Below, in pieces: positions 35,816 to 58,100 of a stretch of 64,000 nt of DNA. Below the pieces are notes generated by a model. That model searched no databases and was not told where the DNA came from. It saw only the letters and a list, made by a program, of their open reading frames with translations. Every line of letters starts with the position of its first letter. Position 1 is the first letter of the stretch. This stretch comes from Bacteroidia bacterium (GTDB taxonomy: Bacteria > Bacteroidota > Ignavibacteria > SZUA-365), in the NCBI GenBank assembly GCA_027493955.1, contig JAOSJT010000001.1, forward strand, positions 2,963,131 to 3,027,130, written 5' to 3'. Both the position numbers and the translations under genes were made by a program.

Positions 35816-38800
35816 TCAGGATAGTTCACCTTCTGCGAATGTTGCCGGCGTGCTGCTCAGGGGAATGTCGATCAGGACGGACGTTCCCCTGCCGGGGGCT
35901 GATTCTATGGTGCACGATCCGCCGATGATTTCCGCCCGCTCGCGGATGCCGTTGAGCCCGAGACTGCGATGCGAGCGGCCGGGGCCTCGCGTGTCGAACC
36001 CGATGCCGTCGTCGCGTATGGTGACGATGAGCCGATCCGCCTCGCGTCTGACGCGAAGCTCGCAGGACTGAGCCTGCGCATGTCGGAGGACGTTGCCCAC
36101 CGCTTCCTGGACGATGCGGAACATATGAATCTCATCCGTCTTGCCGAGCAGCCCGTCGATATCATCCACATGCAGATCGAGACGGATGTTTGTGGGCTGA
36201 AACACTTCTTCGGTGGTCTCGCGCAGGGTTTCGCTGAGTCCAACGCGCTCGAGCTGAATCGGGCGGAGATTGTACGCGATGGCGCGGATATCGTCGAGCA
36301 TGCTCGCGGAGATGGTTGTGGCTTTGGACAACGGGCGGCGAAGCTGTTCGGGCAGCGTCGTATCGTTCAGGGCGCGGTGCAGATTACTCTTGATGACCAT
36401 GGCCTCCTGCCCCACGCTGTCGTGAAGTTCGGAAGCGATGCGCTTGCGTTCGAGCTCCTGTGCGTCGATCAATTGCCGGGCGAATTCGAGCTGGATTTCT
36501 TTCTGGCGGCGGTCGTGTTCCGCTTGCAGCCGCAGCGCCTCCGCCTCCGCCGCCTGCGCCTGATACTCAGCAGCCTTCGCCTGAAATTCGGCCGCGGCAG
36601 CGCGCAGTTCGGAGGCCTTGCGTTTTTGCCTCGCCTGCTTGTAGCCCAGCAGACCGACTACTAACAGCAGAGTCAGTCCGCCAATCATACCGCCGGTGAA
36701 CTGCTCCTGCCTGCTGAGTATCGATGCCTTGAGCTGGTTGTCGGTGCGGAGCAGCGTCGCTTCCCGCTGCTTCCGCTCGTACTGCTCTTTCTGATAGGCG
36801 AGGTCGAGCTCGTGAATATCCTTCTCCTGTTCGAGAAGCTGAATCTGCTGCAGGCGTTGCGAGGCTTCAAGTTGCTGACGCCGTATGGCCTCCTGCTGCA
36901 GGCGCAACGACGACTGCTGACGGAGGAGTTCCAGACCGGAAATCGATTTATCCTTTTCGAGGAGAGCGATGCGTTGCTCGCGCTGCGCCGTCTCATATGC
37001 GATGTTCAGCTCGTGCAGCCGCAGCAGGTTTGCGCGGTTGAGCACCGTATCCTTCGCTGTCGCGAATTGCTTATAGTGGGAGAAGGCGCGAGCCGTGTCG
37101 CCGCGTCTCTCGTACAGGCTGCTGAGCGCCCGGTGCGCATCGCGCTCCCTGTCTGCGAATCCGTTCTTCCGTGCAAGTGTGCAGCCACGTTCGAGGAACA
37201 GCGCCGCTGCGTCATAATCGCCCTGGCCAAGATATATCTGCCCCTCCTCGATCAGGTCATTACTGACGGCTCGATCGCCGCGACCCTCGCGAAGACGGAG
37301 ACTGTTGCTGAACGCATCACGCGATTTCTCTGCCTCCCCGATGGATCGGTACAGCGCCCCAAGCTTACTCCATACCCTGGCCCGGGCGAGTCGGTCATCC
37401 GTCTGTTCACTGATCCGCATCGCGCGGCGAAACATCTCCAGCGCACGGTCGGAAGCGCCGTCCGCCTGCAGGCATTCGCCGGCGAGCAGCGCTGCGTTCA
37501 TGATCTCGATTTTGTCGCCGGTTTCTTCGTGCAGTGCGATAGCGCGCATTGCATAAGACAACGCTTTTCCGATCTCGCCGGCTGCGAGGAGCGGTGCCGT
37601 CATGCGCTGATACGCTTGTGCCTGGAGATCTTTCCGTCCGATGCGTTCGGCGATTGCGCTGCCCTTGAGAAAGCACTCCAGCGCCCTGTCCATCGCTCCG
37701 AGACCGTGGTGGACCATCCCGATGCGCAGCCAGCTTGCAGCGACGTTGTCCTGTTCATCGACCTCATTGAAAAGACGGAGCGCATGCTCGTTGGCCTCGA
37801 GCGACAACGTATATTCTTCCCTGCTGCGGTACAATTCGCCGATATTCGCCAGGCTCTGTGCTATCCCTGCTTTGTCGTCGAGAGACTCGCGAATGCGCAG
37901 CGCAGTAGTGTAGTATTCCAGCGCCTTGTCGGAATTCCGTTGAGTTTTTTCGAGCGACCCGAGATTGTTGAGCGCACCGGCCATCTGGTACTTGTCGCCC
38001 AGCTCCTTCCACATAGAGTAGCTCTCATCGTAGCACCGTCGCGCATCGACGTAGTCGCCGCGCAGTTCCTGCACGAGGCCGAGATTTTCCATCGCCGAGG
38101 CGATGCCGTTTTTATTCCCGATGTCCTGATAGATGTCGAGCGATTCTCTGAAATAGAGCGCCGCGCTGTCGTACATTGCGCGGGTACGGAACACATTGCC
38201 GATGTTGTTCAGCGCCATGGCGATGCCGGACGGCTGCTGAATCTTTCGATAGGATTCCAGGCTGCGAGTGTAGAGCCGCAAGGCCGCAACGAGGTTACCG
38301 CGCCTGACTTCCACGTTGGCGATTGCATTCTCAACGCCAGCGATTTCCGCGGGAGCCTGGAGTTCTTTGGTGATGGTGAGCGCCTGCTCGAGGAAACGCA
38401 TCGCATCTCCATAACGTCCCTGGGACTCATGGATCGAGGCAATATTTTTCAGGACGGTGGGGAGTCCCCGTCGGAAATTGGTCTCCGTCCACAGCGCCAG
38501 CGCACGGTTGAGGCAGCTCAGCGCCGTATCGAGCCGGCCCAGCCGCATAAGCGTGGTGCCGACGTTATTCGCCGACATGGCGATGGCCTGTTTGTCGCCG
38601 AGCGATTCGCGGATGCGCAGTCCCCGGGAGAAGTAGTCAAGCGAACGCTCTGTGCCGCCTTTCTTCCCGTGTATGTCCCCGGCCATGTTCAGCGCAACCG
38701 CTATCCTCTTCTGATTGCCAAGTTCTTCCTGTATCTTCCGGAATTTTTCCAGATGTTCCAGCGCCTCGTCGTAGCGGCCGGCGTTCAGCGAGAGTCGGCA

Positions 38801-39058
38801 TCGCTGATATTCGCACTCGGCGATCCACTCTTTCAAACCGAGCTTTTTCGCCATTTTCGCCGCCTGATCGAGATAAGGCAGTGCATCCTTCGTGCTGACA
38901 AGACTGGTGTAAGCAGAGAGATTGACCAGGACCTCCACCTTCGTCTTGTCGTCCTTCTTGAGCCCTGCGAGAACGCGCTTCAGACTGTCGATATGCGCGG
39001 GCTGAGCGAATGCGGGGATGGAGGCCAACAGCAACGCGAAGAGCAGCACGACGGGCAT
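35816..39058 (-). CDS. TPR-repeat sensor histidine kinase (HisKA_3/NarX-DesK type)
   Basis: The frame is open to 39463, but the ATG at 39058 starts a signal peptide (MPVVLLFALLLASIPAFAQ), giving 1080 residues. About 600 residues of tetratricopeptide repeats follow, with recurring ALNNIGNVF, DKALEYYTTALRIRE-type units (Tetratricopeptide_12-like), which should lie in the periplasm. A coiled coil, a transmembrane helix (about 786-803), a second coiled coil, the HisKA_3 dimerisation box ERKRIASELHDSVGQE (His about 879) and a HATPase domain (EAVGNVLRHAQA; DDGIGFDTRG; GLNGIRERAEIIGG) complete the protein. The repeats probably sense a protein ligand. Partner: the regulator at 35089-35736. Confidence 0.92.
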   Translation of the reverse strand: MPVVLLFALLLASIPAFAQPAHIDSLKRVLAGLKKDDKTKVEVLVNLSAYTSLVSTKDALPYLDQAAKMAKKLGLKEWIAECEYQRCRLSLNAGRYDEALEHLEKFRKIQEELGNQKRIAVALNMAGDIHGKKGGTERSLDYFSRGLRIRESLGDKQAIAMSANNVGTTLMRLGRLDTALSCLNRALALWTETNFRRGLPTVLKNIASIHESQGRYGDAMRFLEQALTITKELQAPAEIAGVENAIANVEVRRGNLVAALRLYTRSLESYRKIQQPSGIAMALNNIGNVFRTRAMYDSAALYFRESLDIYQDIGNKNGIASAMENLGLVQELRGDYVDARRCYDESYSMWKELGDKYQMAGALNNLGSLEKTQRNSDKALEYYTTALRIRESLDDKAGIAQSLANIGELYRSREEYTLSLEANEHALRLFNEVDEQDNVAASWLRIGMVHHGLGAMDRALECFLKGSAIAERIGRKDLQAQAYQRMTAPLLAAGEIGKALSYAMRAIALHEETGDKIEIMNAALLAGECLQADGASDRALEMFRRAMRISEQTDDRLARARVWSKLGALYRSIGEAEKSRDAFSNSLRLREGRGDRAVSNDLIEEGQIYLGQGDYDAAALFLERGCTLARKNGFADRERDAHRALSSLYERRGDTARAFSHYKQFATAKDTVLNRANLLRLHELNIAYETAQREQRIALLEKDKSISGLELLRQQSSLRLQQEAIRRQQLEASQRLQQIQLLEQEKDIHELDLAYQKEQYERKQREATLLRTDNQLKASILSRQEQFTGGMIGGLTLLLVVGLLGYKQARQKRKASELRAAAAEFQAKAAEYQAQAAEAEALRLQAEHDRRQKEIQLEFARQLIDAQELERKRIASELHDSVGQEAMVIKSNLHRALNDTTLPEQLRRPLSKATTISASMLDDIRAIAYNLRPIQLERVGLSETLRETTEEVFQPTNIRLDLHVDDIDGLLGKTDEIHMFRIVQEAVGNVLRHAQAQSCELRVRREADRLIVTIRDDGIGFDTRGPGRSHRSLGLNGIRERAEIIGGSCTIESAPGRGTSVLIDIPLSSTPATFAEGELS

Positions 39059-39449
39059 GGCTGCGCGGAAAGTGAGTGACAAGAAACCTGGCGAAGGGTG
39101 CAGGACGGGGTGCACGAGACAGGATGCGTCCGCTGCCGGCTTGCACGTCTGCACACACCTCCGGTCCGCGGTGGACGCGTATGCCGCGCATTGAGGAATG
39201 ACGGGTTCTACGCACGGAGGACAGGAGATGGATCGGACACAAGTCTCGGGGTATCGGGAGGTGGCACTCATTGCAGCTCCATCAGCTCTATGGATAGTGC
39301 AGGCTCTATTGTGCGAAGGGTATTTCGGATTCATGGTATCCATATTCGAAACTGCGGGAAGATGTACTATTCTACTGCATTTTTCCACGTAATTCGGTCC
39401 TGTATATGCATGATACTCGACACATTGTTTTTCGGACGCGTGCCTGTCT
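39059..39449. other. 391-bp spacer without a gene
   Basis: Leader region of the TPR kinase. Short open frames on both strands have no ribosome-binding site. I found no clear promoter, hairpin or repeat. Confidence 0.5.
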
Positions 39450-42400
39450 TTACCTAACGACACTCAGCCTTTTCACCTTCACCAATCCGGCCGACTCAAG
39501 CCGTACCATATACATTCCTGCAGGTAATGCCGCCGCGTCGAACACGACTGAGTGCATACCGCCCTGGCGTATACCATCCTCCACCACCGCCACTTCGCGG
39601 CCGAGTGCATCATGGATGGTCAGGCGGACGTACGCTTCGGCGGCAAGCGAGTAGGTGAAGATCGTTGCGGACGCTCCGGCTTCGCCGTTGTATACGGGAT
39701 TCGGATAATTCTGCGCCAGAGAAAATGCCGGATCCGACGACTGCAGCACGGTCACTTCGTGACTCACCGTCTCGGTGCCGTCCGTGTCGATCTGGCGGAG
39801 ACGGTAGGCCAGCGGTGTCCCGGCCGGGATACCGGTCTCGATCGCATCGCTGAATGCGTATTCCTGCCCGGCCATGGTCGTGCCGCTTCCCGGGACGAAA
39901 CCACGGGACCGCCATGGCCCGGATCCGACCCGCCGCTCGACGATGAATCCCGCGTTGTTCGTCTCCGACGCCGTGCTCCACGTAACTATCGCCGCACCGG
40001 CCTCGAGCCGCGCCGAGAAGGAAAGCAGTTCCACCGGCAGATTCGCCGCGCTGTCGGCAATTGCGAAGGGCGAGAAAGCCGTCACACCGTACACGGTACG
40101 GGTGTACGGATTGCTGCCTGCCGTTGGCCCAGGCGGCTGCAGCGCGTACCAGGTGCTGCCGTTGAAGCGGTGGATCATACTCCCGGTTCGCAGAAAAGCC
40201 GGCAGTTCGTCGTTGAGGTACCATTGAAGCGTGATCGTCGCGTCGCTACCGCCGGGATTCCCCTCCTCGATCACCCAGGTGCGTCCGACCGCATGCGAGG
40301 TGAGGACGGTTCCCGAGAGACCCGCAAGCCGCAAATCTGCAACGGCGCGCACGCGGAACGCGTCCGCTGTGCCGGCGTTCGTGAGCGACACGGGAGTGTA
40401 GCTCACATGCGACGCTCCGACGGGAAAGAGCACAGCGCCTGTCCGTGCTCCCGTGCCGATGCCGTCGATAACGAGCGAACCCGTGTCCGATGTCACGATA
40501 TGCGAGGTAAAGCTTCCGCCGGAGATCGCGGCTGTCGGTCCGAGACGAATCTCTCCCGCTCCCGCATCGATATTGCCGCTGCTGAGGATGAGCGCATCGG
40601 TGATTCCGAGCTGACCGCCCACGAGCGTGCCATTGGTGTTGTTCATCTCGAGGGCGGAGAGCGTCACGCTTGGAATGGAAATCGGGGTCTGTCCGCTTCC
40701 GGCGATCACGACTGTATCTCCCGAACCCGGTGTGGCACACGGATGATTCCAATTCCCGGGAGTACTCCATTCACGTGACACTGCGCCGGTCCAGACCAGG
40801 TGCGTCGTATCGGCGGAGTAAAGCACAAGCTGCGTTGCCACCGAGGTGTCTTTGCAGGCTGCAGGAGATGTGAGTATCACGCGATACAATCCCGGTAAGG
40901 CCGCCATGTAGGTGGCGTTGATTGCGCCACCGATTGCATTGCCGTCCCTGAGCCATTGATATGTATATCCCGATCCTCCGGAGGAAGTGAGTGCTATAGA
41001 GGTACTGGGGCAGAGAGGTACAGCCCCTGCCGGTGTGATACTGGCACTGGGCCTGGGACCGATGGTGAGATCCGAGCCATTGTCGGTACCGGTCCAGGGA
41101 AGGATTGAGGCTACGACGCGGATGCGGTAACGGGTACCGAGTACAGCATTCACAGGTAACAAGCAATTGATGCTTCCGGATTGCGTCCCTGCTAGGGTGC
41201 CGATAGCAACAGGCGTCGAGAAAGACCCTGTCGCATCCGAAAGTTGTGCGGTGAAATTATTCCCCGAATTGAATACTCCTGTTGCGGTGAAGCTGACCTG
41301 CAGCATGGAACCGGCACAGAATATCGAGGGATTGACTGCAGCGGTCTGGAGAGCCATTATGTTGTTGGTAAAATGACCGTACTGATTGAACGATGCAATA
41401 AAGGCGTTGTTAACCGGCGAGATGTAGATAGGATTAAATAAGGGCAACCCTGGTCCGGCGTTACCGACAACAGTTACCGCACCACCGGATCCGACTGTAC
41501 AAGAGTATCCATAGTCGCCCCCCGTCCCCCCATAATACGTTGACCAGAGGCATCCACCGCCAGGGCTGAAAGCTGTAATGACCACATCAGGACCACCTGC
41601 ATTCGAGGCTTGAAACGCATTCATCGTGGGGTAATTTGCGCTACTTGCCCATCCGGCCACATATAATGAACCGCCGCTGTCGCAGTCAATACCGAGCATC
41701 GAATCCGTATTCGAACCGCCCAAGAATGTCGACCACATCAGGGTGCCAGTGCTGGAGAACTTCACAACGAATCCGTCGTCCTGTCCTCCGCCATATACAC
41801 TTTGAAATGCTCCATACACCGGGAAATTCACATTGCTCGTCTGGCCGGCGATAGACACATTGCCGCTCCCATCCACGGTCATGTCGCGCAGTATTTCGTA
41901 TGCGCTCCCGGAACCTCCGAAATAGGTGGACCAAAGAAGTTGTCTCCCCGGACTGAACTTAGACAACGCCAGATCGCCGCTCCCCGCACGTGTGGCCTGA
42001 AACGGGTTGAGCACAGGGAAATTATTACTTTCTGTTCCGGAGGCAACGTAGATTGAATTATCGAAACCGAAGGCGGCGAAACAGCCGTCGTCATCGGAGC
42101 CACCAAAGTATGTGGCCCAGCTTACTTGCCCAGTACTTGAAAACACCACGATGAATCCGTCGCTGGGGCCACTGAGATTCGATTGAAAGGGATTAGAGGT
42201 CGCCATATTCGAACTCTGTGTGACGAAACCCAGAACAATACTGCCGTTAGAAGCACAATCAGGGAACGCGAGTTGTTCGGAACCTGAACCACCAACGTAC
42301 GTCGCCCAATTTCGGAGTCCGCTGGGGGTCAATAGAACGAGCACGCAATCCTTCTGACCGCCAAACGTCGTCTGATACGCTCCGGTGCTTACCGGGAAGT

Positions 42401-43646
42401 CTATACTTTCAGTCGTGCCTGCAATGGCGATATTGCCGGCCGGGTCGATAGAAACCCGATTCACGTATCCGTTGTTACCGAATTCCTGGCCGCTGCCTCC
42501 ATAATACGTCGCCCATTGTACAGTACAACTCGCGGAGTACTTGATGACACACCAATCTATTGAACCCGCGACTGACGATTGAATGGCATTCTGCACCGGA
42601 AATCCGCCACTCGAAAAACCGACGGCAACGATATTTCCCGAGGCATCACAATCAACATTCCAAAAACCTGCTCCGGCACAATACGTCGCCCACGGATCAA
42701 TCACGAGCAGCGCGTTCGGATCATAATTTCCAACGGAAAAGCCCACAACCTCGCCCTGGAGCGAGAATGCGGACGGCACTTCTGCCCCGTTCTGGTGTGT
42801 ATACGGCTTCTTTTCGTTGATCTCGCCCAACGGCGTTTCTACCTCCAGTCCGCCATTATCGTTCACCCGGATATTCGTCGCGCCATCGTAGTGCATGCGG
42901 ATATCTTTCGGATTTCCTCCCGGATGCACGATGAACTCGTATTTCATTTTTTGTTGATCGGAGTAGTACACCAGATCGATGTTGTCGTAGATGTTCTCGT
43001 ACACCAGTTTCCCGTAGCTTTTCACATAGGTGATCCCGTCGGGACAGTGGGCGAGGTAGTAGTTGCTGTAGCCCTCCTGCTCGATATCATGCCGTATGCG
43101 CACATTCGCATTGCAGCCCTGCAGCTTCATATCCATCCTGTACACCGAGACCTGCTCCGGCTCCCGGTCGCGTTCGTCAAGCGGGTCGTCGCTCATCCGC
43201 CGGCCAGCCTGATTGTCATCATTTTCCGTCCTGGTGAACACGTAACTCACACCGGTCGCCGTAAAGTACAACCTGGTCCCTCCCGCATCGGCCGTATAGC
43301 GAATCTCAGGCCGGGGCTTCCCATCCGTATCGGCGACTTGCCCGCGGTTCTCCGTGAAACGGATCGACGCAGTCGCCATGGCGGAACGGACTTTCTGCTC
43401 CGCGGCCGGATCGGCATCGCGCTTCATCTCCGCTTTCGGCAGAAGCACCGCATCGTAGAGTATCGGCGATCGCCTCGTTACCGGTAGTGTTACTCTGTCA
43501 CGCGTCAACTCCGCATCGGAGGCCCTCGGCACACCGTTCACACGCACATTGTCCATTGCCGCCGAAAAATACGGCGATGCGGAAAAAGACACAGACATTG
43601 AGAGGAACAGCAGAATGAGCGTATGGAAGGCAGAAGCGCGTGTCAT
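39450..43646 (-). CDS. SBBP-repeat T9SS cargo protein, tandem copy A
   Basis: 1398 residues with a signal peptide (MTRASAFHTLILLFLSMSVSFSAS). An N-terminal domain (ENRGQVADTDGKPRPEIRYT... GVSYVF... KYEFIVHPGGNPKDIRMHYDG), typical of SBBP proteins, leads into about nine beta-propeller repeats (VQWATYYGGSGQE, LLWSTYFGGSGSAYE, and so on). These are followed by Ig/PKD-like domains (PAGAVPLCPSTSIALTSSGG), a fibronectin-like NNAGFIVERRVG segment and a T9SS sorting domain (NYPNPVYNGE... LPAGMYMVRLESAGLVKVKR). This suggests a surface-exposed adhesin-like protein. The next gene (43848-48047) is nearly identical at both ends, but the propeller centre differs strongly. Confidence 0.85.
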   Translation of the reverse strand: MTRASAFHTLILLFLSMSVSFSASPYFSAAMDNVRVNGVPRASDAELTRDRVTLPVTRRSPILYDAVLLPKAEMKRDADPAAEQKVRSAMATASIRFTENRGQVADTDGKPRPEIRYTADAGGTRLYFTATGVSYVFTRTENDDNQAGRRMSDDPLDERDREPEQVSVYRMDMKLQGCNANVRIRHDIEQEGYSNYYLAHCPDGITYVKSYGKLVYENIYDNIDLVYYSDQQKMKYEFIVHPGGNPKDIRMHYDGATNIRVNDNGGLEVETPLGEINEKKPYTHQNGAEVPSAFSLQGEVVGFSVGNYDPNALLVIDPWATYCAGAGFWNVDCDASGNIVAVGFSSGGFPVQNAIQSSVAGSIDWCVIKYSASCTVQWATYYGGSGQEFGNNGYVNRVSIDPAGNIAIAGTTESIDFPVSTGAYQTTFGGQKDCVLVLLTPSGLRNWATYVGGSGSEQLAFPDCASNGSIVLGFVTQSSNMATSNPFQSNLSGPSDGFIVVFSSTGQVSWATYFGGSDDDGCFAAFGFDNSIYVASGTESNNFPVLNPFQATRAGSGDLALSKFSPGRQLLWSTYFGGSGSAYEILRDMTVDGSGNVSIAGQTSNVNFPVYGAFQSVYGGGQDDGFVVKFSSTGTLMWSTFLGGSNTDSMLGIDCDSGGSLYVAGWASSANYPTMNAFQASNAGGPDVVITAFSPGGGCLWSTYYGGTGGDYGYSCTVGSGGAVTVVGNAGPGLPLFNPIYISPVNNAFIASFNQYGHFTNNIMALQTAAVNPSIFCAGSMLQVSFTATGVFNSGNNFTAQLSDATGSFSTPVAIGTLAGTQSGSINCLLPVNAVLGTRYRIRVVASILPWTGTDNGSDLTIGPRPSASITPAGAVPLCPSTSIALTSSGGSGYTYQWLRDGNAIGGAINATYMAALPGLYRVILTSPAACKDTSVATQLVLYSADTTHLVWTGAVSREWSTPGNWNHPCATPGSGDTVVIAGSGQTPISIPSVTLSALEMNNTNGTLVGGQLGITDALILSSGNIDAGAGEIRLGPTAAISGGSFTSHIVTSDTGSLVIDGIGTGARTGAVLFPVGASHVSYTPVSLTNAGTADAFRVRAVADLRLAGLSGTVLTSHAVGRTWVIEEGNPGGSDATITLQWYLNDELPAFLRTGSMIHRFNGSTWYALQPPGPTAGSNPYTRTVYGVTAFSPFAIADSAANLPVELLSFSARLEAGAAIVTWSTASETNNAGFIVERRVGSGPWRSRGFVPGSGTTMAGQEYAFSDAIETGIPAGTPLAYRLRQIDTDGTETVSHEVTVLQSSDPAFSLAQNYPNPVYNGEAGASATIFTYSLAAEAYVRLTIHDALGREVAVVEDGIRQGGMHSVVFDAAALPAGMYMVRLESAGLVKVKRLSVVR

Positions 43647-43787
43647 GTCGACCCCGGCTGATGTGGGAGTGAGGGATTGGTTATTTCTTCCTTAGGTGCT
43701 CAATGGCGAAAATACGGACTTCGTGTGAAAATTTCAGATAGACTGGTAAGAATTTTCTCGACCGGCGCATCGGAAACCCTCCGTGCC

Positions 43788-43812
43788 TTCCCCGGCGATG
43801 TGCACCGGGGAA
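43788..43812. other. Hairpin in duplicated spacer (copy A side)
   Basis: TTCCCCGG / CCGGGGAA around CGATGTGCA. It lies in the ~200-bp spacer that is repeated almost exactly at 48048-48248. No T-tract follows, so it may be a terminator remnant or mRNA stabiliser. Confidence 0.45.
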
Positions 43813-43847
43813 AGCAGGATATTTCGGGATTTCGAATACCAAATCCG

Positions 43848-46800
43848 TCATCTGACGATATGCATCATCCTTGTCCGCACCACGCCCTGCGCCTCGAGAC
43901 GGCACACATAGCTGCCGGCGGGAAGACCGGATGCGTTGAAGCTGATGCTCTGCGTGCCCGCGGGACGCACGCCTTCGACCACCACCGCCACTTCGCGGCC
44001 GAGAGCATCATGGATGGTCAGACGGACGTACGCTTCGGCGGCAAGCGAGTAGGTGAAGATCGTTGCGGACGCTCCGGCTTCGCCGTTGTATACGGGATTC
44101 GGATAATTCTGCGCCAGAGAAAATGCCGGATCCGACGACTGCAGCACGGTCACTTCGTGACTCACCGTCTCGGTGCCGTCAGTGTCGATCTGGCGGAGAC
44201 GGTAGGCGAGCGGTGTCCCGGCCGGGATACTGGTCTCGATCGCATCGCTGAATGCGTATTCCTGCCCGGCCATGGTCGTGCCGCTTCCCGGGACGAAACC
44301 ACGGGACCGCCATGGCCCGGATCCGACCCGCCGCTCGACGATGAATCCCGCGTTGTTCGTCTCCGACGCCGTGCTCCACGTAACTATCGCCGCACCGGCC
44401 TCGAGCCGCGCCGAGAAGGAAAGCAGTTCCACCGGCAGATTCGCCGCGCTGTCGGCAATTGCGAAGAGCGAGAAAGCCGTCACACCGTACACGGTACGGG
44501 TGTACGGATTGCTGCCTGCCGTTGGCCCAGGCGGCTGCAGCGCGTACCAGGTGCTGCCGTTGAAGCGGTGGATCATACTCCCGGTTCGCAGAAAAGCCGG
44601 CAGTTCGTCGTTGAGGTACCATTGAAGCGTGATCGTCGCGTCGCTACCGCCGGGATTCCCCTCCTCGATCACCCAGGTGCGTCCGACCGCATGCGAGGTG
44701 ATGACGGTTCCCGAGAGACCCGCAAGCCGCAAATCTGCAACGGCGCGCACGCGGAACGCATCCGCTGTGCCGGCGTTCGTGAGCGACACGGGAGTGTAGC
44801 TCACATGCGACGCTCCGACGGGAAAGAGCACAGCGCCTGTCCGTGCTCCCGTGCCGATGCCGTCGATAACGAGCGAACCCGTGTCCGATGTCACGATATG
44901 CGAGGTAAAGCTTCCGCCGGAGATCGCGGCTGTCGGTCCGAGACGAATCTCTCCCGCTCCCGCATCGATATTGCCGCTGCTGAGGATGAGCGCATCGGTG
45001 ATTCCGAGCTGACCGCCCACGAGCGTGCCATTGGTGTTGTTCATCTCGAGGGCGGAGAGCGTCACGCTTGGAATGGAAATCGGGGTCTGTCCGCTTCCGG
45101 CGATCACGACTGTATCTCCCGAACCCGGTGTGGCACACGGATGATTCCAATTCCCGGGAGTACTCCATTCACGTGACACTGCGCCGGTCCAGACCAGGTG
45201 CGTCGTATCGGCGGAGTAAAGCACAAGCTGCGTTGCCGCCGAGGTGTCTTTGCAGGCTGCAGGAGATGTGAGTATCACGCGATACAATCCCGGTAAGGCC
45301 GCCATGTAGGTGGCGTTGATTGCGCCACCGATTGCATTGCCGTCCCTGAGCCATTGATATGTATATCCCGATCCTCCGGAGGAAGTGAGTGCTATAGAGG
45401 TACTGGGGCAGAGAGGTACAGCCCCTGCCGGTGTGATACTGGCACTGGGCCTGGGACCGATGGTGAGATCCGAGCCATTGTCGGTACCGGTCCAGGAAGG
45501 ATTGGAGGCTACGACACGGATGCGGTATCGAGTACCGGGTACAGCGTTTACAGGTAACGAGCAATTGATGCTTCCGGATTGCGTCCCTGACAATGCTCCG
45601 ATGGCTGAGGGTGATGTAAACGACCCTGTGGCGTCGGACAATTGCGCTGTGAAAACATTTGCAGCGTTGAAAGTGCCTGATGCAGTGAACGACACGGGCA
45701 GAGATGCACCACCACAAAGCAAAGAGGGAATAATCTGCGATGTCAGTATCTGCATGGGCACAGACGAAAACTGGCCCTGTGCGTTCATGACGACGACGAA
45801 CAGATCGTCATTACCGGCGTTAGCTGACTGATATGGGTTCAACGTGTACATGTTCATGCTAAACGTCCTTCCGATCCCTATCACTTCACCGGTTGAGCTA
45901 CACGCTATTCCCTGGAACCAATCATTACCACTTCCTCCAAAATAGGTTGCCCATTGCAAAACGCCGCTTGACGACGCGGCAAGGAAAAATCCGTCATAGC
46001 CTCCTCCAATTGTGCTCTGGTGGGCGTTCAATACAGGGAGATTCGTGCTGTTGGTGGACCCGGTGACATACACTGCTCCGCTCGATGCGCAAACGATATC
46101 ATCTACGTATTCGGTACCGCTTCCTCCAAAATATGTCGACCAATAGAGGGTTCCATTAGAGGAGAACTTTGAGATAAATGCATCATAGCCTCCTCCGTTA
46201 TTTGTGGTTTGCCATCCGTTGGGAGCCGGCAGGTTGGAACTGCTCGTCGTGCCGTCCAAAAAAACATTACCTGCCTGATCCATGGCTACTCCTCGACAGC
46301 GGTCATCCCCTGACCCACCGTAGTACGTCGCCCACTCACGCTGTCCGGATGCATTGAATTTCACAAGGACGGCTTCACGGCCGACTCGAACAGACTGCCA
46401 TGCATTCTGCAATGGAAAATTTGAACTGTCGGTAAAACCTCCCGCCGCGAGAGCGCCGGAAGGCGTGACAGAAATACGCGTCGAGGTATCGCTATCGCTC
46501 CCACCATAGTACGTTGACCACAGTAGCTGGCCGGAGGAACTGAATTTCCCTATCACCCAATCATACGCTCCTGAGAGAGACGATTGAAACGGATTCACCA
46601 TTGGAAAGTTTGAGCCGTTGGTATATCCGATGAAATAGATGTTGTCATTGGCATCGCATTTCAAATCAGTTATAGTATCCACTCCGTTACTGCCGATGTA
46701 TGTAGCCCAGACGCGAATACCGGTGTTTGATAATTTGATGATCGCACCTTCATCATTGCCTCCGGCGTGAGCCGCTTGAAACGCGCCAAAAGTTGTAGGA

Positions 46801-48047
46801 AAATTCGTGCTCTGTGTGCGAACTGAGACAGTGGCGTTGCCGGAATTGTCGCAAGCGAACGAAGGCCAGCCATCGGATCCGCTTCCCCCATAGTATGTAG
46901 CCCAACGTAATGACCCGGTCGGGGTGAACGAAATGATGGCAAGGTCTGATAAACCTGCGTGGGTCGATTGATGGGCGTTCATCACTGGGAAATTCGTGCT
47001 ATATGTGTCTCCGCCGGTGAAGATGTTGTCATTACCATCTCGGGAAATCCAACCACAGTTCTCACCTCCCGATCCTCCGAAATACGTTGCCCACGGATCA
47101 ATCACCAGCATCGCGTTCGGATCATAATTTCCAACGGAAAAGCCCACAACCTCGCCCTGGAGCGAAAAAGCGGACGGCACTTCGGCGCCGTTCTGGTGTG
47201 TATACGGCTTCTTTTCGTTGATCTCGCCCAACGGCGTTTTGACCTCAAGGCCGCCGTTATCGTTCACCCGGATATTCGTCGCGCCGTCGTAGTGCATGCG
47301 GATATCTTTCGGATTTCCTCCCGGATGCACGATGAACTCGTATTTCATTTTTTGTTGATCGGAGTAGTACACCAGATCGATGTTGTCGTAGATGTTCTCG
47401 TACGCCAGTTTCCCGTAGCTTTTCACATAGGTGATTCCGTCGGGACAGTGGGCGAGGTAGTAGTTGCTGTAGCCCTCCTGCTCGATATCATGCCGTATAC
47501 GCACATTCGCATTGCAGCCCTGCAGCCTCATATCCATCCTGTACACCGTGACCTTCTCCGGCTCCCGGTCGCGTTCGTCAAGCGGGTCGTCGCTCATCCG
47601 CCGGCCAGCCTGAGTGTCATCATCTTCAGTCCTGGTGAACACGTAACTCACACCTGTCGCCGTAAAGTACAACCTGGTCCCTCCCGCATCGGCCGTATAG
47701 CGAATCTCAGGCCGGGGCTTCCCATCCGTATCGGCGACTTGCCCGCGGTTCTCCGTGAAACGGATCGACGCAGTCGCCATGGCGGAACGGACTTTCTGCT
47801 CCGCGGCCGGATCGGCATCGCGCTTCATCTCCGCTTTCGGCAGAAGCACCGCATCGTAGAGTATCGGCGATCGCCTCGTTACCGGTAGTGTTACTCTGTC
47901 ACGCGTCAACTCCGCATCGGAGGCCCTCGGCACACCGTTCACACGCACATTGTCCATTGCCGCCGAAAAATACGGCGAAGCGGAAAAAGACACAGACATT
48001 GAGAGGAACAGCAGAATGAGCGTATGGAAGGCAGAAGCACGTGTCAT
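43848..48047 (-). CDS. SBBP-repeat T9SS cargo protein, tandem copy B
   Basis: 1399 residues; signal peptide, N-terminal ~300 residues and C-terminal ~480 residues are almost identical to copy A. The central SBBP repeats (RWATYYGGSGSDGW, REWATYYGGSGDDR, LYWSTYFGGSGTEY and others) match only as family members. The last ~45 residues (VAVVVEGVRPAGTQSISFNA... SYVCRLEAQGVVRTRMMHIVR in two parts) are not those of copy A. They match the end of the unrelated ELWxxDGT protein encoded upstream, so the sorting domain is a hybrid. Expected surface exposure and role are as for copy A. Confidence 0.85.
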   Translation of the reverse strand: MTRASAFHTLILLFLSMSVSFSASPYFSAAMDNVRVNGVPRASDAELTRDRVTLPVTRRSPILYDAVLLPKAEMKRDADPAAEQKVRSAMATASIRFTENRGQVADTDGKPRPEIRYTADAGGTRLYFTATGVSYVFTRTEDDDTQAGRRMSDDPLDERDREPEKVTVYRMDMRLQGCNANVRIRHDIEQEGYSNYYLAHCPDGITYVKSYGKLAYENIYDNIDLVYYSDQQKMKYEFIVHPGGNPKDIRMHYDGATNIRVNDNGGLEVKTPLGEINEKKPYTHQNGAEVPSAFSLQGEVVGFSVGNYDPNAMLVIDPWATYFGGSGGENCGWISRDGNDNIFTGGDTYSTNFPVMNAHQSTHAGLSDLAIISFTPTGSLRWATYYGGSGSDGWPSFACDNSGNATVSVRTQSTNFPTTFGAFQAAHAGGNDEGAIIKLSNTGIRVWATYIGSNGVDTITDLKCDANDNIYFIGYTNGSNFPMVNPFQSSLSGAYDWVIGKFSSSGQLLWSTYYGGSDSDTSTRISVTPSGALAAGGFTDSSNFPLQNAWQSVRVGREAVLVKFNASGQREWATYYGGSGDDRCRGVAMDQAGNVFLDGTTSSSNLPAPNGWQTTNNGGGYDAFISKFSSNGTLYWSTYFGGSGTEYVDDIVCASSGAVYVTGSTNSTNLPVLNAHQSTIGGGYDGFFLAASSSGVLQWATYFGGSGNDWFQGIACSSTGEVIGIGRTFSMNMYTLNPYQSANAGNDDLFVVVMNAQGQFSSVPMQILTSQIIPSLLCGGASLPVSFTASGTFNAANVFTAQLSDATGSFTSPSAIGALSGTQSGSINCSLPVNAVPGTRYRIRVVASNPSWTGTDNGSDLTIGPRPSASITPAGAVPLCPSTSIALTSSGGSGYTYQWLRDGNAIGGAINATYMAALPGLYRVILTSPAACKDTSAATQLVLYSADTTHLVWTGAVSREWSTPGNWNHPCATPGSGDTVVIAGSGQTPISIPSVTLSALEMNNTNGTLVGGQLGITDALILSSGNIDAGAGEIRLGPTAAISGGSFTSHIVTSDTGSLVIDGIGTGARTGAVLFPVGASHVSYTPVSLTNAGTADAFRVRAVADLRLAGLSGTVITSHAVGRTWVIEEGNPGGSDATITLQWYLNDELPAFLRTGSMIHRFNGSTWYALQPPGPTAGSNPYTRTVYGVTAFSLFAIADSAANLPVELLSFSARLEAGAAIVTWSTASETNNAGFIVERRVGSGPWRSRGFVPGSGTTMAGQEYAFSDAIETSIPAGTPLAYRLRQIDTDGTETVSHEVTVLQSSDPAFSLAQNYPNPVYNGEAGASATIFTYSLAAEAYVRLTIHDALGREVAVVVEGVRPAGTQSISFNASGLPAGSYVCRLEAQGVVRTRMMHIVR

Positions 48048-48185
48048 GTCGACCCCGGCTGATGTGGGAGTGAGGGATTGGTGATTTCTTCCTTAGGTGC
48101 TCAATGGCGAAAATACGGACTTCGTGTGAAAATTTCAGATAGACTGGTAAGTATTCTCTCGACCGGCGCATCGGGAACGCTCCGT

Positions 48186-48216
48186 GCCTTCCCCGGCGAT
48201 GTGCACCGGGGAAGGC
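48186..48216. other. Hairpin in duplicated spacer (copy B side)
   Basis: GCCTTCCCCGG / CCGGGGAAGGC, an 11-bp perfect stem 33 bp past the stop of the gene ending at 48249. The copy at 43788 has one stem mismatch. No U-tract on the minus strand. Confidence 0.45.
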
Positions 48217-48248
48217 AGGATATTTCGGGATTTCGAATACCAAACCCG

Positions 48249-50159
48249 TCATCTGACGATATGCATCATCCTTGTCCGCATCGCGCCCTGCGCCTCGAGG
48301 CGGCACACATAGCTGCCGGCGGGAAGAAGGGATGCGTTGAAGCTGATGCTCTGCGTGCCAGCGGGACGCACGCCTTCGACCACCACCGCCACTTCGCGGC
48401 CAAGCATGTCGTGTATCGAAATCCGAACAAGCGCTGATTCAGGCAGCGAGAAGGTGATCGCGGTAGACTGCATGCTTGCTGAGCCGAAGGGATTCGGGTA
48501 ATTCTGCTCCAGCGCGAGTGATGTCGGTGCCGCCTGCCGCTCGCCCGCGCTCTTTGGAAGCGTGGCCAGATCGATCATGTACGGCTCCCAGCCGTACGGC
48601 TTGTCGTAGCCATGAAAGAAGAGCTTGTTGTTGACGACGCACATAGTGTATGGGATGTCGCTTGAGCCGATGTTGAACGTCGGGTCGGTGTTGATGTCGG
48701 TCAGCAGTTGGGTGGTTGTGCCGTTGCTGCGCCAGAGTTCGATGCCGTGCACGCCGTCGTCGGCCGGGAAATAAAGCCATCCGTTATGCGAGAAGAAACA
48801 GTGTTCATTCTCGGAATGCACGTCAAGCGTCATTGCACCCGGCCAGGAAATGTTCGGATACGAACCATGAACTCCCGGATTGATATCCGCCACACGCACC
48901 GTGTTGCCGCCCAGCGCCACGGGAATGCCGTCGCTCTTCCACAATTCCTGCCCGTGCTCAGGATCAAACGCCGAGAAGTACAGTGTTCCGTCAATAGCGG
49001 TGATCCAGCTTACATAGGCACTGTCGCGCGGTCCGGTGCCCGGGTGTATGTCGGCCACGACGTCCACCGTGTTCGTTGCAGGTATATAGCGCATGAGTTT
49101 ATCGCCGTCGTTGGCCGTGCGGCCGGAAAAATAGACGATGTTGTTCATCACGGTCAGCCAGGCCGGCAGGCTGCTCTCCGCACCGGGGAAAATATCCATG
49201 ACGCGCGTCGTGCCGACGGAAGTGCCGTCGGACTTCCAGAGCTCGTACCCGCTGCTCCCGTCCGTCGCCGTGAAGTAGATGTAATCGCCGACTGAGACGA
49301 TCCGGTTCGCATCATAGGCCAGGGGCCAGTTCCCGGAAATAGCGGGAACGCATCCCGACCCCGTGCCCGGGTTGATGTCCTTTACCATGACCGTGCCCGC
49401 GGCGGTGCCGTCGCTTTTCCACAGCTCTTCGCCGAACTTCGTCGACGGGGCGCCTTTCTTCACGGCAACGTAATCCTTGAGAAAACAGTAGGCGGTGCCG
49501 TTGTGCACGGTCAACGCGATTTTGTGGCTCCCGTGTGACTGGAATGCTTTGTTCGTGGTGAGGCCGCTGGTACCTGAGGAGGTGCCGTTCGTCACGAAGA
49601 GGCCGTAGATACTTACATAGTACGACTTCCACGGGAAAGACTCCCAGAACCCCCATGCGGCGGTGAAAATGACCTTACCGTTCCCGAGCATATGATAATA
49701 AGACGGATTGCTGTGCGGGACCTTGGTGGAGGTCAGTAGATCGCGGACGAGCACCGTGCCGGCGGTCGTGCCGTCGGACTTGAACAGTTCCATTCCGACG
49801 GCGACGCTCGGCGCGGCAGAAAGATACACGGTTCCGTTGACATTGCGCGGCGTGCCGGCATAAGCAGGTTCATTGGCCATGAAATAGAAATCCTTGATCC
49901 GTCTCGGACTCGGTGAGGCGGCCGTGGCGTCAATGCCGTAGAGCGAAGTGCTCATGCCGTCGGTTGCCGCGAGAATCAGTTCGTTACCGAGCGACGTGAA
50001 CGAGCCGCACCAGGACCACGCTCCCTCGCCGTTGACGACGAGCTTGTTGATGTCGAACAATACGGGGTTCGCGATGGGCATCTGCTGTGCCGGACTCTGC
50101 GTAACAATGCCTGCAAGCATCAGCAGGAACAATGCGATACAATGGAATGAACGATTCAT
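48249..50159 (-). CDS. ELWxxDGT-repeat T9SS cargo protein 1
   Basis: The ATG at 50159, with AAAGGAG 8 bases upstream, gives 636 residues and a signal peptide (MNRSFHCIALFLLMLAGIVTQSPAQ). The body carries repeated ELWKSDGTxxGT units (ELWKSDGTAAGTVMVKDINP; YELWKSDGTSVGTTRVMDI; QELWKSDG; IELWRSNGT), probably a beta-propeller. The C-terminus is a T9SS sorting domain (NYPNPFGSASMQSTAITFSL... DMLGREVAVVVEGVRPAGTQ). The protein should be surface-exposed or released; no enzymatic motif is seen. The following gene upstream is a paralogue with the same leader and promoter region. Confidence 0.83.
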   Translation of the reverse strand: MNRSFHCIALFLLMLAGIVTQSPAQQMPIANPVLFDINKLVVNGEGAWSWCGSFTSLGNELILAATDGMSTSLYGIDATAASPSPRRIKDFYFMANEPAYAGTPRNVNGTVYLSAAPSVAVGMELFKSDGTTAGTVLVRDLLTSTKVPHSNPSYYHMLGNGKVIFTAAWGFWESFPWKSYYVSIYGLFVTNGTSSGTSGLTTNKAFQSHGSHKIALTVHNGTAYCFLKDYVAVKKGAPSTKFGEELWKSDGTAAGTVMVKDINPGTGSGCVPAISGNWPLAYDANRIVSVGDYIYFTATDGSSGYELWKSDGTSVGTTRVMDIFPGAESSLPAWLTVMNNIVYFSGRTANDGDKLMRYIPATNTVDVVADIHPGTGPRDSAYVSWITAIDGTLYFSAFDPEHGQELWKSDGIPVALGGNTVRVADINPGVHGSYPNISWPGAMTLDVHSENEHCFFSHNGWLYFPADDGVHGIELWRSNGTTTQLLTDINTDPTFNIGSSDIPYTMCVVNNKLFFHGYDKPYGWEPYMIDLATLPKSAGERQAAPTSLALEQNYPNPFGSASMQSTAITFSLPESALVRISIHDMLGREVAVVVEGVRPAGTQSISFNASLLPAGSYVCRLEAQGAMRTRMMHIVR

Positions 50160-50346
50160 GTCTGCTCCTTTCGGCTGTATGGTTGTGAGATTGCGATGAG
50201 TCCTGCTGTTGATTACTGTGAGTCGGCTCTGCTTCTGCTCCGGGTGCCGAAGCTGTGCACGAAAGCGCGGTATTTCGTCCTGTCGCATCTGCGGCTGTTG
50301 CGGTCAGGGTTTGCTTAACAGATATGAGGGCCCTTTATTTTTAATA

Positions 50347-50711: not shown

Positions 50712-52610
50712 CTACTTCATGAGCGACATCTTTCCGGAGAGTACGGAGCCGTTGGCTTCGAGACGGTAGAGATACAAGCCGCTCGGGAGATCGCGCGGCG
50801 CGTCGAATATGACGCTGTGCGTACCGGCCTCCTTCATCCCGTTTTCGAGCTCAGCGACAACGCGTCCGAGTGCATCGAAAACACGGAGCTGAACGCGGGC
50901 GTCCTGCGGAATCGCGTAGCGGATTGTGGTTGTCGGATTGAAGGGGTTAGGGTAGTTCTGCTGCAGTGCGAGAGACGACGGTGTCGCCTGCCGCTCGCCA
51001 GAGCTTTTTGGAAGCGTGGCGAGATCGATCATGTACGGCTCCCAGCCGTGCGGCTTGTCGTAGCCATGGAAGAACAGCTTGTTGTTCACCACGTTCATGG
51101 TGTACGGAATATCGCTCGAGCCTCCGTTGAACGTGGGATCCGTATTGATATCGGTCAGGAGCTGTGTTACTGTTCCGTTGCTGCGCCAGAGCTCGATGCC
51201 GTGCGTGCCATCGTCGGCCGGGAAGTATATCCAGCCGTTGTGCCAGAAGAAACGGTGTTCGTCCATGGAATTGGCTTCCATCGTCTCGGCACCAGGCCAG
51301 GCGATATTCGGGTACGATCCATGAATTCCCGGATTGATATCCGCCACACGCACCGTGCTGCCGCCCAGCGCCACGGGAATGCCGTCGCTCTTCCACAATT
51401 CCTGCCCGTGCTCGGGATCAAACGCCGAGAAATACAGTGTGCCGTCAATAGCCGTCATCCAGCTTACATAGGCACTGTCGCGCGGGCCGGTGCCCGGGTG
51501 TATGTCGGCCACGACGTCCACCGTGTTCGTTGCAGGCACATAGCGCATGAGTTTGTCGCCGTCGTTGCCGTTGCGGCCGGCGAAGTACACAATGTCGTTC
51601 ATCACCGTCAGCCAGGCCGGCCATCCGCTCTCGGCGCCCGGAAAGATGTCAGCCGCGCGGACTGTGCCGGCCGCTGTGCCGTTGGTCTTCCACAGCTCGT
51701 AACCGCTGCTGCCATCGGTCGCTGTGAAATAGAGATCGTTGCCCACGGGGACGAGCCGACTGGATGCGCTTGCCAGGGCGACCCCCGCATTGTTGGAATA
51801 TGCCAGCACACATCCCGAGGCCGTTCCGGGATTGATGTCCTTGACCATGACGGTACCGGCTACCGTACCATTGCTCTTCCAGAGTTCCACCCCATATTTA
51901 GAAGATGGCGGACTGCCCTTGATGTAGTCCTTCATAAAGCAGTAAGCAATACCGTTATGCACGGTAAGAGCCATGATCTCGCTATTGTTGCCTAACACGA
52001 ATGATTTGCCAGAACTGAGGCTTGCGGTACCGGAGGACGTGCCATCCGTCACGCCCAGACCAATGAGCTCGACATACCACTGCGGTCGTTCCTGCCAGAA
52101 TCCCCACGCGGCGGTGAAGATGGTTTTGCCATTCCCCAACGCATGAAAGTTCCCCGGCTGGCTGTGCGGGTACTTGGTGGACGTCTGCAGATCCCGGACG
52201 AGCACGGTACCGGCGGTGGTGCCGTTGGATTTGAACAGTTCCCGCCCGACTGTAGCGCTCGGCGCAGCCGGGAGATATACGGTGCCGTTGACGTTGCGCG
52301 GCGAACGGGCGTGCGGGTTCTGGTTTGCCACGTAATAGAAATCCTTGATCCTTCTCGGTACCGGAGCGGCGACGGTGGCATCGATGCCGTACAATGCGGT
52401 GCTCATGCCATCAGTTGCCGCGAGTATCAACTCGTTTCCGAGTGAAGTAAACGGACCGCACCACGACCACTCACCTTCACCATTTGTGACGAGGGGATTG
52501 ATGTCGAAGAGCACAGGATTCGCGATGGGCTGCTGCTGCGCCTGACTCTGCGTAACAATGCCTGCAAGCGTCAGCAGGAACAATGCGATAAAATTGAATG
52601 AACGATTCAT
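50712..52610 (-). CDS. ELWxxDGT-repeat T9SS cargo protein 2
   Basis: 632 residues, the same leader peptide type (MNRSFNFIALFLLTLAGIVTQSQAQ) and ribosome-binding site as the downstream paralogue, to which it is about 80% identical by eye through the repeats (VELWKSNGTVAGT; YELWKTNGTAAGT; IELWRSNGT). Its sorting domain differs: NYPNPFNPTTTIRYAIPQDARVQL... ALGRVVAELENGMKEAGTH... LPSGLYLYRLEANGSVLSGK. This is the canonical form, whereas gene 1 has the GREVAVVVEGVRPAGTQ form. So the duplicated genes carry different C-terminal tails, as in the SBBP pair. A terminator follows directly. Confidence 0.83.
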   Translation of the reverse strand: MNRSFNFIALFLLTLAGIVTQSQAQQQPIANPVLFDINPLVTNGEGEWSWCGPFTSLGNELILAATDGMSTALYGIDATVAAPVPRRIKDFYYVANQNPHARSPRNVNGTVYLPAAPSATVGRELFKSNGTTAGTVLVRDLQTSTKYPHSQPGNFHALGNGKTIFTAAWGFWQERPQWYVELIGLGVTDGTSSGTASLSSGKSFVLGNNSEIMALTVHNGIAYCFMKDYIKGSPPSSKYGVELWKSNGTVAGTVMVKDINPGTASGCVLAYSNNAGVALASASSRLVPVGNDLYFTATDGSSGYELWKTNGTAAGTVRAADIFPGAESGWPAWLTVMNDIVYFAGRNGNDGDKLMRYVPATNTVDVVADIHPGTGPRDSAYVSWMTAIDGTLYFSAFDPEHGQELWKSDGIPVALGGSTVRVADINPGIHGSYPNIAWPGAETMEANSMDEHRFFWHNGWIYFPADDGTHGIELWRSNGTVTQLLTDINTDPTFNGGSSDIPYTMNVVNNKLFFHGYDKPHGWEPYMIDLATLPKSSGERQATPSSLALQQNYPNPFNPTTTIRYAIPQDARVQLRVFDALGRVVAELENGMKEAGTHSVIFDAPRDLPSGLYLYRLEANGSVLSGKMSLMK

Positions 52611-55160: not shown

Positions 55161-58100
55161 TATGATTGTTCTCCTGAATTATGCGCTCTTTGCCACGACC
55201 CGGGTGCGGCGTTGACACGCGATTCCGGTTCCGTCTGTTTTGAGTGAGCGTGTTGCGTCGCCAATTTCGTGTCATCCGTTCCCGCCGGGAGTTCAAGGGA
55301 AATCCAGGCACCGCCGTCCGGGTGCGATCGGAAGCGCACTTCGCCGTGCAGCATCTCCGCGCGCTCGCGCAGGTTGCGCAGACCGAAGCCGTCCGAATAT
55401 CCCATGGTGACGTTCGCATCGAAGCCCTTGCCGTTGTCCCGCACACTGATGGTTATGCGCGAGGCGTTCCTTCCGATGTACACATCTGCTGCTGTCGCGC
55501 CCGAATGTTTGAGGACATTATTCAGACACTCCTGCACGATACGATAAATGCTGGTTTCGTCGTCCTTCGGGAAAACTCCGTCAATATCGTCTATCTCCGC
55601 CGTGCAGGCGATGCGCGATTGCTCCGCCACGTTTTGCACGAGCGAGCGCAGGGTACGGGTCAGACCGACGCGGTCCAGCTGATACGGACGGAGATCGTGG
55701 GAGATATGACGGACTTCCTTGAGTGCATTCGTCGCCATGCGTTCGATCTGTTCGAATTCGCTGCGGATTTCATCCGGGAGGTCTTCCCGTTGCATCGCGA
55801 ACAGCGTCCTGTTCTTGATCACGAGCAGGTCCTGTCCGAGACTGTCATGCAATTCGCCCGCGATGCGTTTGCGTTCCCGTTCCTGCGTGTCAATGAGTTG
55901 CTTGGTGTAGCGGCGTTGCGCGAGACGGTCGCGGCGCTCTGTTTCGACCTGCAATGCGAGCGCCTGTGCTTCCGCCGCTTTCGCGCGGTATTCGGCGCCT
56001 TCCGCGCGCAGCGTGGCTTCGACGCGTCGTGATTGAATACGCTTCACTCCGAGGAAACCCAGAGCGACGATCAGGACGAGCCCTCCTATCAGGACGTTGC
56101 GCAGCCCGTTGGCGCGAGCCGCGATGGAGGCCAGGTATTCCTTTTCTTTCGCGAGTTGCCGCTTATGCGCTCTTTCGGACTCCACAGTGTTTTTTTGCAG
56201 CGCCAGCTCGGCGTCCTGCATTTCCATCCTGATGACGTACAGTTCCTGATCACGCTCGAGCAGTTCGGTTCGCTGACGGATGCGCGCCGATTCCGAGCGC
56301 TGAAAAGCGAGCTGTCGCTGCTTCGACTCCAATTCCAGGGTTTGCAGACGCTTATCCTTTTCCAGCAGTTCGATTGTTTTCTGCTGCTGTGACGAGCGAT
56401 ACTTCGCCTCCATTTCGCTCACGGATTTCACATTCGCCTCATTGACCAGCGAATCACGCAATGAGACGGTGGTATTGAGATAATCGTATGCCCGGCGGTG
56501 ATTTCCTGCCTGCGCATAGGCCTCGCTGAGGGAATGCGCCGCCCGCTCGCTGATACGGATATCGTTCAGGACGCCAGCCAGAATTTCCGCCTGCTGTGCA
56601 TGCAATACCGCGCTGTCGTGTACTCCTCGCGCCGCCTGCACGGACGAGAGGGAGACATGCGCCCAGACCATTCCGGTGGAATCTTTCACCTCGCGCGCTT
56701 GCGCAAGGCTCTTTCGATAGAACTGTACCGCCTGCTCCAAGCGGCCGCGTCGCTGGTGAAGATGCCCGAGACTGTTCGCACAGGCCGCAATGCCGCCCGG
56801 CGACCAGAGGCTCTCAAAGAGCGCGAGACTCCTCTTGTAGTATTGCAACGCCGCTTCGTCGTTGTCCTGTGCGACATACGCGTTACCGATATTGAGAAGC
56901 GCCGCAGCCTGACCTTGCTTGTCCCCCAATTCCTCCCTCAATGCCAACTCGCGCTGGTTGTATTCGAGCGCCTTCTCCACGCGTCCCTGCTCCCAGTGAA
57001 TACCGGCAATAGTTACGTACGCACTCGCGTAGGCGATTTTGTCCTCGGACTCATCGGCGGTATCCATACAGCGATATGCGTATTTCAATGCCTCCTCGTA
57101 CCTGCCGAGTTTCTTTAACACCGATGCGAAGCCGAGCAACGCGTTGCGCTCGCCGGGCCGGTCACCAATTTCCCGGCATTGTGCCAGCGTACGCTCGTAG
57201 ATGTCCAGTGCTTCCTGGTATCGTCCCTGCGTACTGTGAATTATTGCGATGTTGTTCAACGCCCCGACCATTTTCTGCTTCTCGCCAAGTTCCTCGAACA
57301 GAGAGAGGCATTTCTGATGCGCAGCCAACGCATGTTCGGGTTGGCCCCGAAGTTCATGAATGAGTCCGATGTTTCCGAGTGCGCTGGCAATAGCGGACTT
57401 ATCACTGACCTTTTCAGCTAAATGCAGTCCGCGTGCATAATACTCCGACGCCGTATCATACTCACCCCGCATGTAATGAGAGATTCCCATGTTTATCAGG
57501 AGCGCCACCATGCCGCTGGTATCTTTTTGCTGTTTGCGTATCTCCAGACCTTGCCCGAACATACGCAATGCCCGCTCTTGCTTGTTCTGCTCGCGGTAAG
57601 CCATGCCGAGATTGTTGAGAAAGCTTGCGATACTCACGGTATCCTTCAGGCCTTCCGCAATTTTCAGACCACGCTCAAAATACTTCAGGGCCGGCAGGTA
57701 CTCGCCCCTGTTCAACCGCAGGAGTCCGAGACTATTCAGCGTACCTGCGACATTTCTTTGCTCATCGAAGCGTTCAAACAGCAGCAGACCACGCTGGAGG
57801 TATTCTATCGCAACGGCGTAATTCCCCGTATGATAGTGCACATTCCCGATATCGGTGAGTAAGGCGCCGATGAGTACGGAATCGCCGCATCCTCCGGCAG
57901 CGGCGAGTGCATCTTCGTAGGCAACCAGCGCGGAATCATTGTTTCCAAGAGCCTTCATGACCGCACCGATTTCCCGCCATGCGATTATTTGTGTGCGATC
58001 GTCGTGCGCGTCTTTCGCATACGCCAGAGCGGTCTGGAGATTATCCTGTGCTTCCCTGTATTGCCCGATCCATCGCTGTGTCGCACCCAGAGCTGTGTAC

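Follow-up and report, generated by a model that had tools for sequence, protein, structure and literature searches.

Tandem gene families undergo concerted evolution by gene conversion. The T9SS cargo genes kgp, rgpA and hagA of P. gingivalis are mosaics that arose by recombination of repeated modules, and the near-identical 3' ends of hagA and kgp have been named a likely recombination substrate (PMC5266723, PMC9328147). The locus considered here lies in a window of 64,000 nt (the whole stretch of DNA that was analysed, G000:C1:2963131-3027130) of a Bacteroidia bacterium genome, a single contig of 5.24 Mb that is 100% complete. Four genes, E2, E1, B and A, follow one another head to tail on the minus strand (Table 1), each with a C-terminal T9SS type A sorting domain (CTD). 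These domains resemble the described type A family (TIGR04183/PF18962) in that all four score above the curated TIGR04183 cut-off of 23 bits (A 31.6, B 28.4, E1 28.8 and E2 35.2 bits), with only E2 reaching PF18962 of Pfam; the family differs from what is described below in being defined by protein features. The genome also encodes T9SS machinery (SprA with 989 bits and a sortase of PorU type with 994 bits, each above its cut-off) and at least 150 genes with a CTD. All four genes are predicted to encode T9SS type A cargo.

The listed open reading frame of E1 starts at 50288; comparison with E2 makes 50159 (MNRSF...) the likely start. The homology of E1 and E2 (79%) reaches 15 nt into the CTD and stops there, at the QNYPNPF motif; the tails beyond differ, and this break is a second tail switch within the same cluster. 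Directly adjoining A downstream is a TPR-rich histidine kinase gene (HisKA_3, HATPase; 35816-39463), whose listed open reading frame overlaps the end of A. The window also holds a further direct repeat of 975 nt (55488-56460 and 58878-59850; 83%).

Table 1. Features of the cargo gene cluster, in window coordinates
Feature	Position	Strand	Remarks
Gene E2, tandem paralog of E1	50712..52610	-	
Gene E1, ELWxxDGT-repeat protein + T9SS CTD	48249..50159	-	
22-mer GGCCGCGAAGTGGCGGTGGTGG in E1 CTD (junction tract)	48380..48401	-	
Spacer E1-B	48048..48248	-	201 nt; contains perfect hairpin 48185-48217
Gene B, architecture as A, hybrid CTD with 3' half of E1 type	43848..48047	-	1399 aa
Propeller of B, residues ~321-815	about 45600..47073	-	38% aa versus A; not recently shared
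C-terminal half of B	44001..45510	-	about 99% identical to A 39603-41112; dS 0.013; youngest tract
22-mer GGCCGCGAAGTGGCGGTGGTGG in B CTD, A-like/E1-like junction	43979..44000	-	
Spacer B-A	43647..43847	-	201 nt; 7 differences versus E1-B spacer
Gene A, DUF7948 + SBBP propeller + C-terminal region + T9SS CTD	39450..43646	-	1398 aa
Propeller of A, counterpart of that of B	about 41200..42669	-	
22-mer GGCCGCGAAGTGGCGGTGGTGG in A CTD	39581..39602	-	sequence past the 22-mer unrelated to that of B and E1

The CTDs of A, B and E1 have a 22-mer in common, GGCCGCGAAGTGGCGGTGGTGG (read on the minus strand). Upstream of it B matches A, with 98.9% identity in a stretch of 1612 nt whose end lies 127 nt inside the CTD; downstream of it B matches E1, with 97.3% identity over 553 nt (both by BLASTN). 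The tract common to E1 and B runs from 100 nt into the E1 CTD through the 3' half of that CTD, the stop codon and the spacer into the start of the next gene. The 22-nt match falls in the conserved CTD motif LGREVAVV and is by itself unremarkable; the switch of identity on either side of it, extending into the non-coding spacer, is not a matter of chance. As these alignments show, B changes from A-like to E1-like inside a 22-bp identical tract of CTD-coding DNA. Conversion and crossover histories alike require recombination with an endpoint in CTD DNA, a step to which the sequence attests.

The first-pass annotation had described B as the body of A joined to the tail of E1 through a crossover tract shared by all three genes. 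The hybrid tail stands; the A-like body does not extend throughout, the propeller being the exception. The shared tract exists in all three genes as the 22-mer, with coordinates in A that had been about 10 nt off; the 24-mer originally cited, GACCACCACCGCCACTTCGCGGCC, is found in B and E1 only, and is absent from A because its first two bases are already past the junction. That the spacers of about 200 bp are duplicated is borne out, and the junction, for which a position outside the sorting domain had been named as contrary evidence, lies inside it. Both spacers contain a GC-rich hairpin, TGCCTTCCCCGG...CCGGGGAAGGCA, which is perfect after E1 and has one mismatch after B (43784-43816); it is possibly a 3' processing or terminator element that was copied along with the tail.

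The resemblance between A and B is anything but uniform. Residues 1-320 are 97.5% identical in amino acids (dS 0.08); residues ~321-815, the central 1.5 kb that encodes the SBBP propeller, are 38% identical, with 4-fold sites at chance level and synonymous sites saturated; residues ~858-1340 are about 99% identical in nucleotides (dS 0.013). The tail common to E1 and B has a dS of 0.07, and the two spacers differ at 7 positions. Judged by synonymous divergence, the tail, the spacer and the N-terminal part are equally old (dS about 0.07-0.08) and the C-terminal half is about six-fold younger (0.013). Tail, spacer and N-terminal part also form one contiguous block with a constant offset of 4401 nt, beginning exactly at the 22-mer. 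The left border of the propeller is abrupt; the right border is graded (4-fold identity of 4/13, 14/16 and 20/20 in successive 40-codon windows), as is expected of tract ends. The notion that the A and B propellers are not each other's closest relatives was dropped: compared by one method throughout, they are about as distant from each other as from a paralog at 1857053. A search of the complete genome for a propeller donor gave nothing nearer than about 39% amino acid identity, and the relatives supplied none that was clearly closer. By these distances the two propellers are old paralogs, and the history of A, B and E1 comprises at least two, and probably three, events.

The reading that we prefer, with a probability of roughly 0.52, is that the cluster is a recombination mosaic of older tandem paralogs whose flanks were overwritten by conversion, with CTDs serving as recombination handles here and elsewhere. 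A and B would have started out as older tandem cargo paralogs with propellers that had diverged beforehand, and homologous recombination between neighbours would afterwards have overwritten their flanks. One tract of ~1.3 kb (the 3' half of the CTD, the spacer and the N-terminal third) would have been copied between the E1-B and B-A intervals, with one of its ends in the CTD 22-mer, the sole coding homology common to E1 and B; a subsequent tract would have homogenised the 1.5-kb C-terminal half of A and B. At other loci of this genome and of related ones, the same local recombination would overwrite the CTDs of adjacent T9SS cargo genes; tract ends and whole tracts would fall in CTDs because adjacent cargo genes often have no other homologous DNA in common.

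The survey of this last point covered four genomes of one class: the genome of the window (G000), two of the same family (G001 and G003) and one of another family (G029). Its material was the tandem CTD clusters and the 150 best-scored CTD matches per genome. For pairs with homologous bodies, 4-fold-site identity at conserved codons was compared between CTD and body. At p<0.01 the CTD was the more similar part in 18 of the 64 tandem pairs, against 2 of the 148 dispersed ones (Fisher p 7e-9), pairs inside one cluster being non-independent; by genome, the tandem counts are 9/34 in G000, 4/6 in G001, 2/10 in G003 and 3/14 in G029. The opposite difference, body over CTD at p<0.01, was found in none of the tandem or dispersed pairs tested. 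After within-locus correction 11 of 35 tandem loci pass and 24 show no effect, and with one closest pair taken per locus the shift relative to dispersed pairs reaches only p=0.08. The effect can be large: at L089 (2422592/2425138) 4-fold identity is 32/33 in the CTD and 66/163 in the body, and at L105 it is 21/23 and 74/184. Testing the first 80 body codons in the same way gave 3/63, and the last 80 codons before the CTD gave 4/63; a control of non-CTD tandem paralogs is weak, its members being too few and partly antisense open reading frames. Dispersed paralogs have median 4-fold identities of 0.33-0.35 in the CTD and 0.32-0.35 in the body, which rules out codon constraint in CTDs as the source of the synonymous identity. 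Synonymous identity is raised in tracts and for neighbours only, as gene conversion between tandem paralogs predicts; the A/B profile has the same character.

Neighbours stand out equally when their bodies are unrelated. Neighbours make up 2% of the 9695 pairs that lack body similarity (blastp 1e-3), yet they account for 15 of the 16 pairs with the most similar CTDs. The unrelated neighbours with similar CTDs include B/E1 and pairs at L098, L142, L121, L126, L168, where a sortilin/BNR gene adjoins an RCC1 gene, and L119. L119 (4191-15161, in G029) consists of five successive cargo genes with YCF48/BNR (two), BNR, CarboxypepD_reg and SBBP bodies, and several of its pairs have 84-91% CTD DNA identity; the tracts begin 5-6 nt ahead of the CTD and reach just beyond the stop codon or ~0.1 kb further (~0.1 kb past the stop for 7108/9259). 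Most unrelated-body tracts start at most 30 nt ahead of the CTD and finish close to the stop codon. Since the tracts mostly coincide with the CTD, conversion appears to be the common mode, and the survey tracts are best described as CTD-limited conversion or replacement, not as duplication with a CTD junction. When all unrelated neighbours are taken together their median is barely elevated, so the process is episodic.

The window locus is the only one in the four genomes at which a duplication was seen to have its junction within a CTD. The CTD gene at L098 was considered as a tandem duplication junction and rejected: the 99% duplicate ends 8 nt after the CTD, outside it, and the copies are not adjacent. 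The duplicate in question, which pairs L098 with L111 (G000:C1:4348998-4354809 and 4358521-4364333), is 5.8 kb long and 99.2% identical, with copies 3.7 kb apart. At L109 (G000:C1:3709263-3710568) a 427-nt unit is present in three tandem copies of 100% identity, apparently a very recent amplification. The suggestion of the first-pass annotation that sorting domains are recombination handles for cargo expansion is to be divided: neighbours tend to share CTD DNA in this genome and three relatives, and expansion through CTD crossover was seen only once. The other surveyed cases are mainly tail homogenisation or replacement, not gene gain.

The history closest to the original proposal starts from one ancestral A-type gene, whose CTD would have undergone unequal crossing over with that of E1. 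This would have duplicated a ~4.4-kb unit and generated the hybrid B in one step, with later replacement of the propeller of one copy from a paralog and homogenisation of the C-terminal halves. The single age of the tail, spacer and N-terminal block, its constant offset and its start at the 22-mer are just the geometry that such a crossover predicts, and the junction lies within DNA homologous between the partners, the 22-mer being present in both CTDs. However, for the separate 1.5-kb propeller replacement that it requires no near donor was found in the complete genome, and the C-terminal half is about six times younger at synonymous sites. As a single event the crossover fails: the repeated unit is not of one age (propeller 38% identical in amino acids; dS 0.08 versus 0.013), and the propeller mismatch and younger C-terminal half need further events, so that the claim of one unequal crossover accounting for everything does not survive. 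With those events added it is a history that fits, though the less likely of two. Gene conversion between pre-existing tandem paralogs fits as well or better and is slightly favoured because it needs no propeller donor from elsewhere, and none was found; the choice between the two is made by inference. Among 40 relatives there is no same-genus outgroup for the A/B arrangement, the best being a full-length homolog in G001 (37% amino acid identity) that is uninformative for the junction.

The junction could also have been made by illegitimate (microhomology) joining, with its position in a CTD a coincidence. Perfect identity there spans only 22 bp, and an estimated 6% or so of random junctions in the 4.4-kb unit would land in a CTD; yet tail exchange between neighbours recurs in four genomes and E1/E2 homology likewise breaks in the CTD, which makes coincidence unlikely. 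Ordinary divergence, in which neighbouring CTDs are alike through one duplication and slow evolution under selection for secretion, draws on the functional constraint on CTDs and on their often higher amino acid identity. The excess, however, sits at 4-fold synonymous sites and is absent in dispersed paralogs, and in B/E1, L168 and L119 the genes have unrelated bodies or bodies from different families. Already refuted for the strongest pairs, this explanation is improbable to a slightly greater degree than joining by microhomology. Near-identical repeats can be mis-joined, which would make the locus an assembly artefact; against a complete single-contig genome, and with copies whose differences are strong in the central part and slight outside it, leaving no signature of collapse or chimera, this is scarcely credible.

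Taken with the survey, the handle idea is better supported than it was from the window alone, mostly in the form of local CTD conversion. It is about an even bet that T9SS sorting domains serve generally as handles for local recombination, such that neighbours go on exchanging or overwriting their CTDs even where the bodies are unrelated, tails evolve by neighbourhood and not together with the exported protein, and new hybrids of body and tail arise as a by-product. In some of the surveyed genomes at least 150 genes have this sorting tail in common. If exchange of tails between neighbours is independent of the bodies, CTD phylogenies are not readable as cargo phylogenies, and tail type may track chromosomal position. 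If the idea is true, the modular expansion of T9SS cargo gains a route that is simple and testable, namely recombination in the one sequence common to all cargos.

Reports of CTD-focused exchange between neighbouring cargo genes were not found in the open-access literature, of which coverage was incomplete. The gingipain and hagA-kgp system of P. gingivalis is alike in that T9SS cargo genes with shared modules recombine into mosaic surface proteins, with neighbours favoured. In that system large repeated adhesin domains are part of the homology, and the outcome described is deletion, inter-strain allelic exchange or loss of kgp; here, the homology is the sorting domain of ~80 codons alone, the bodies are unrelated and exchange takes place within one genome. 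The likeness to concerted evolution of tandem families lies in neighbours being closer than dispersed paralogs at synonymous sites and in graded tract ends. In contrast with that general pattern, homogenisation here centres on a single domain, the secretion signal, and also connects genes that are not homologous anywhere else.
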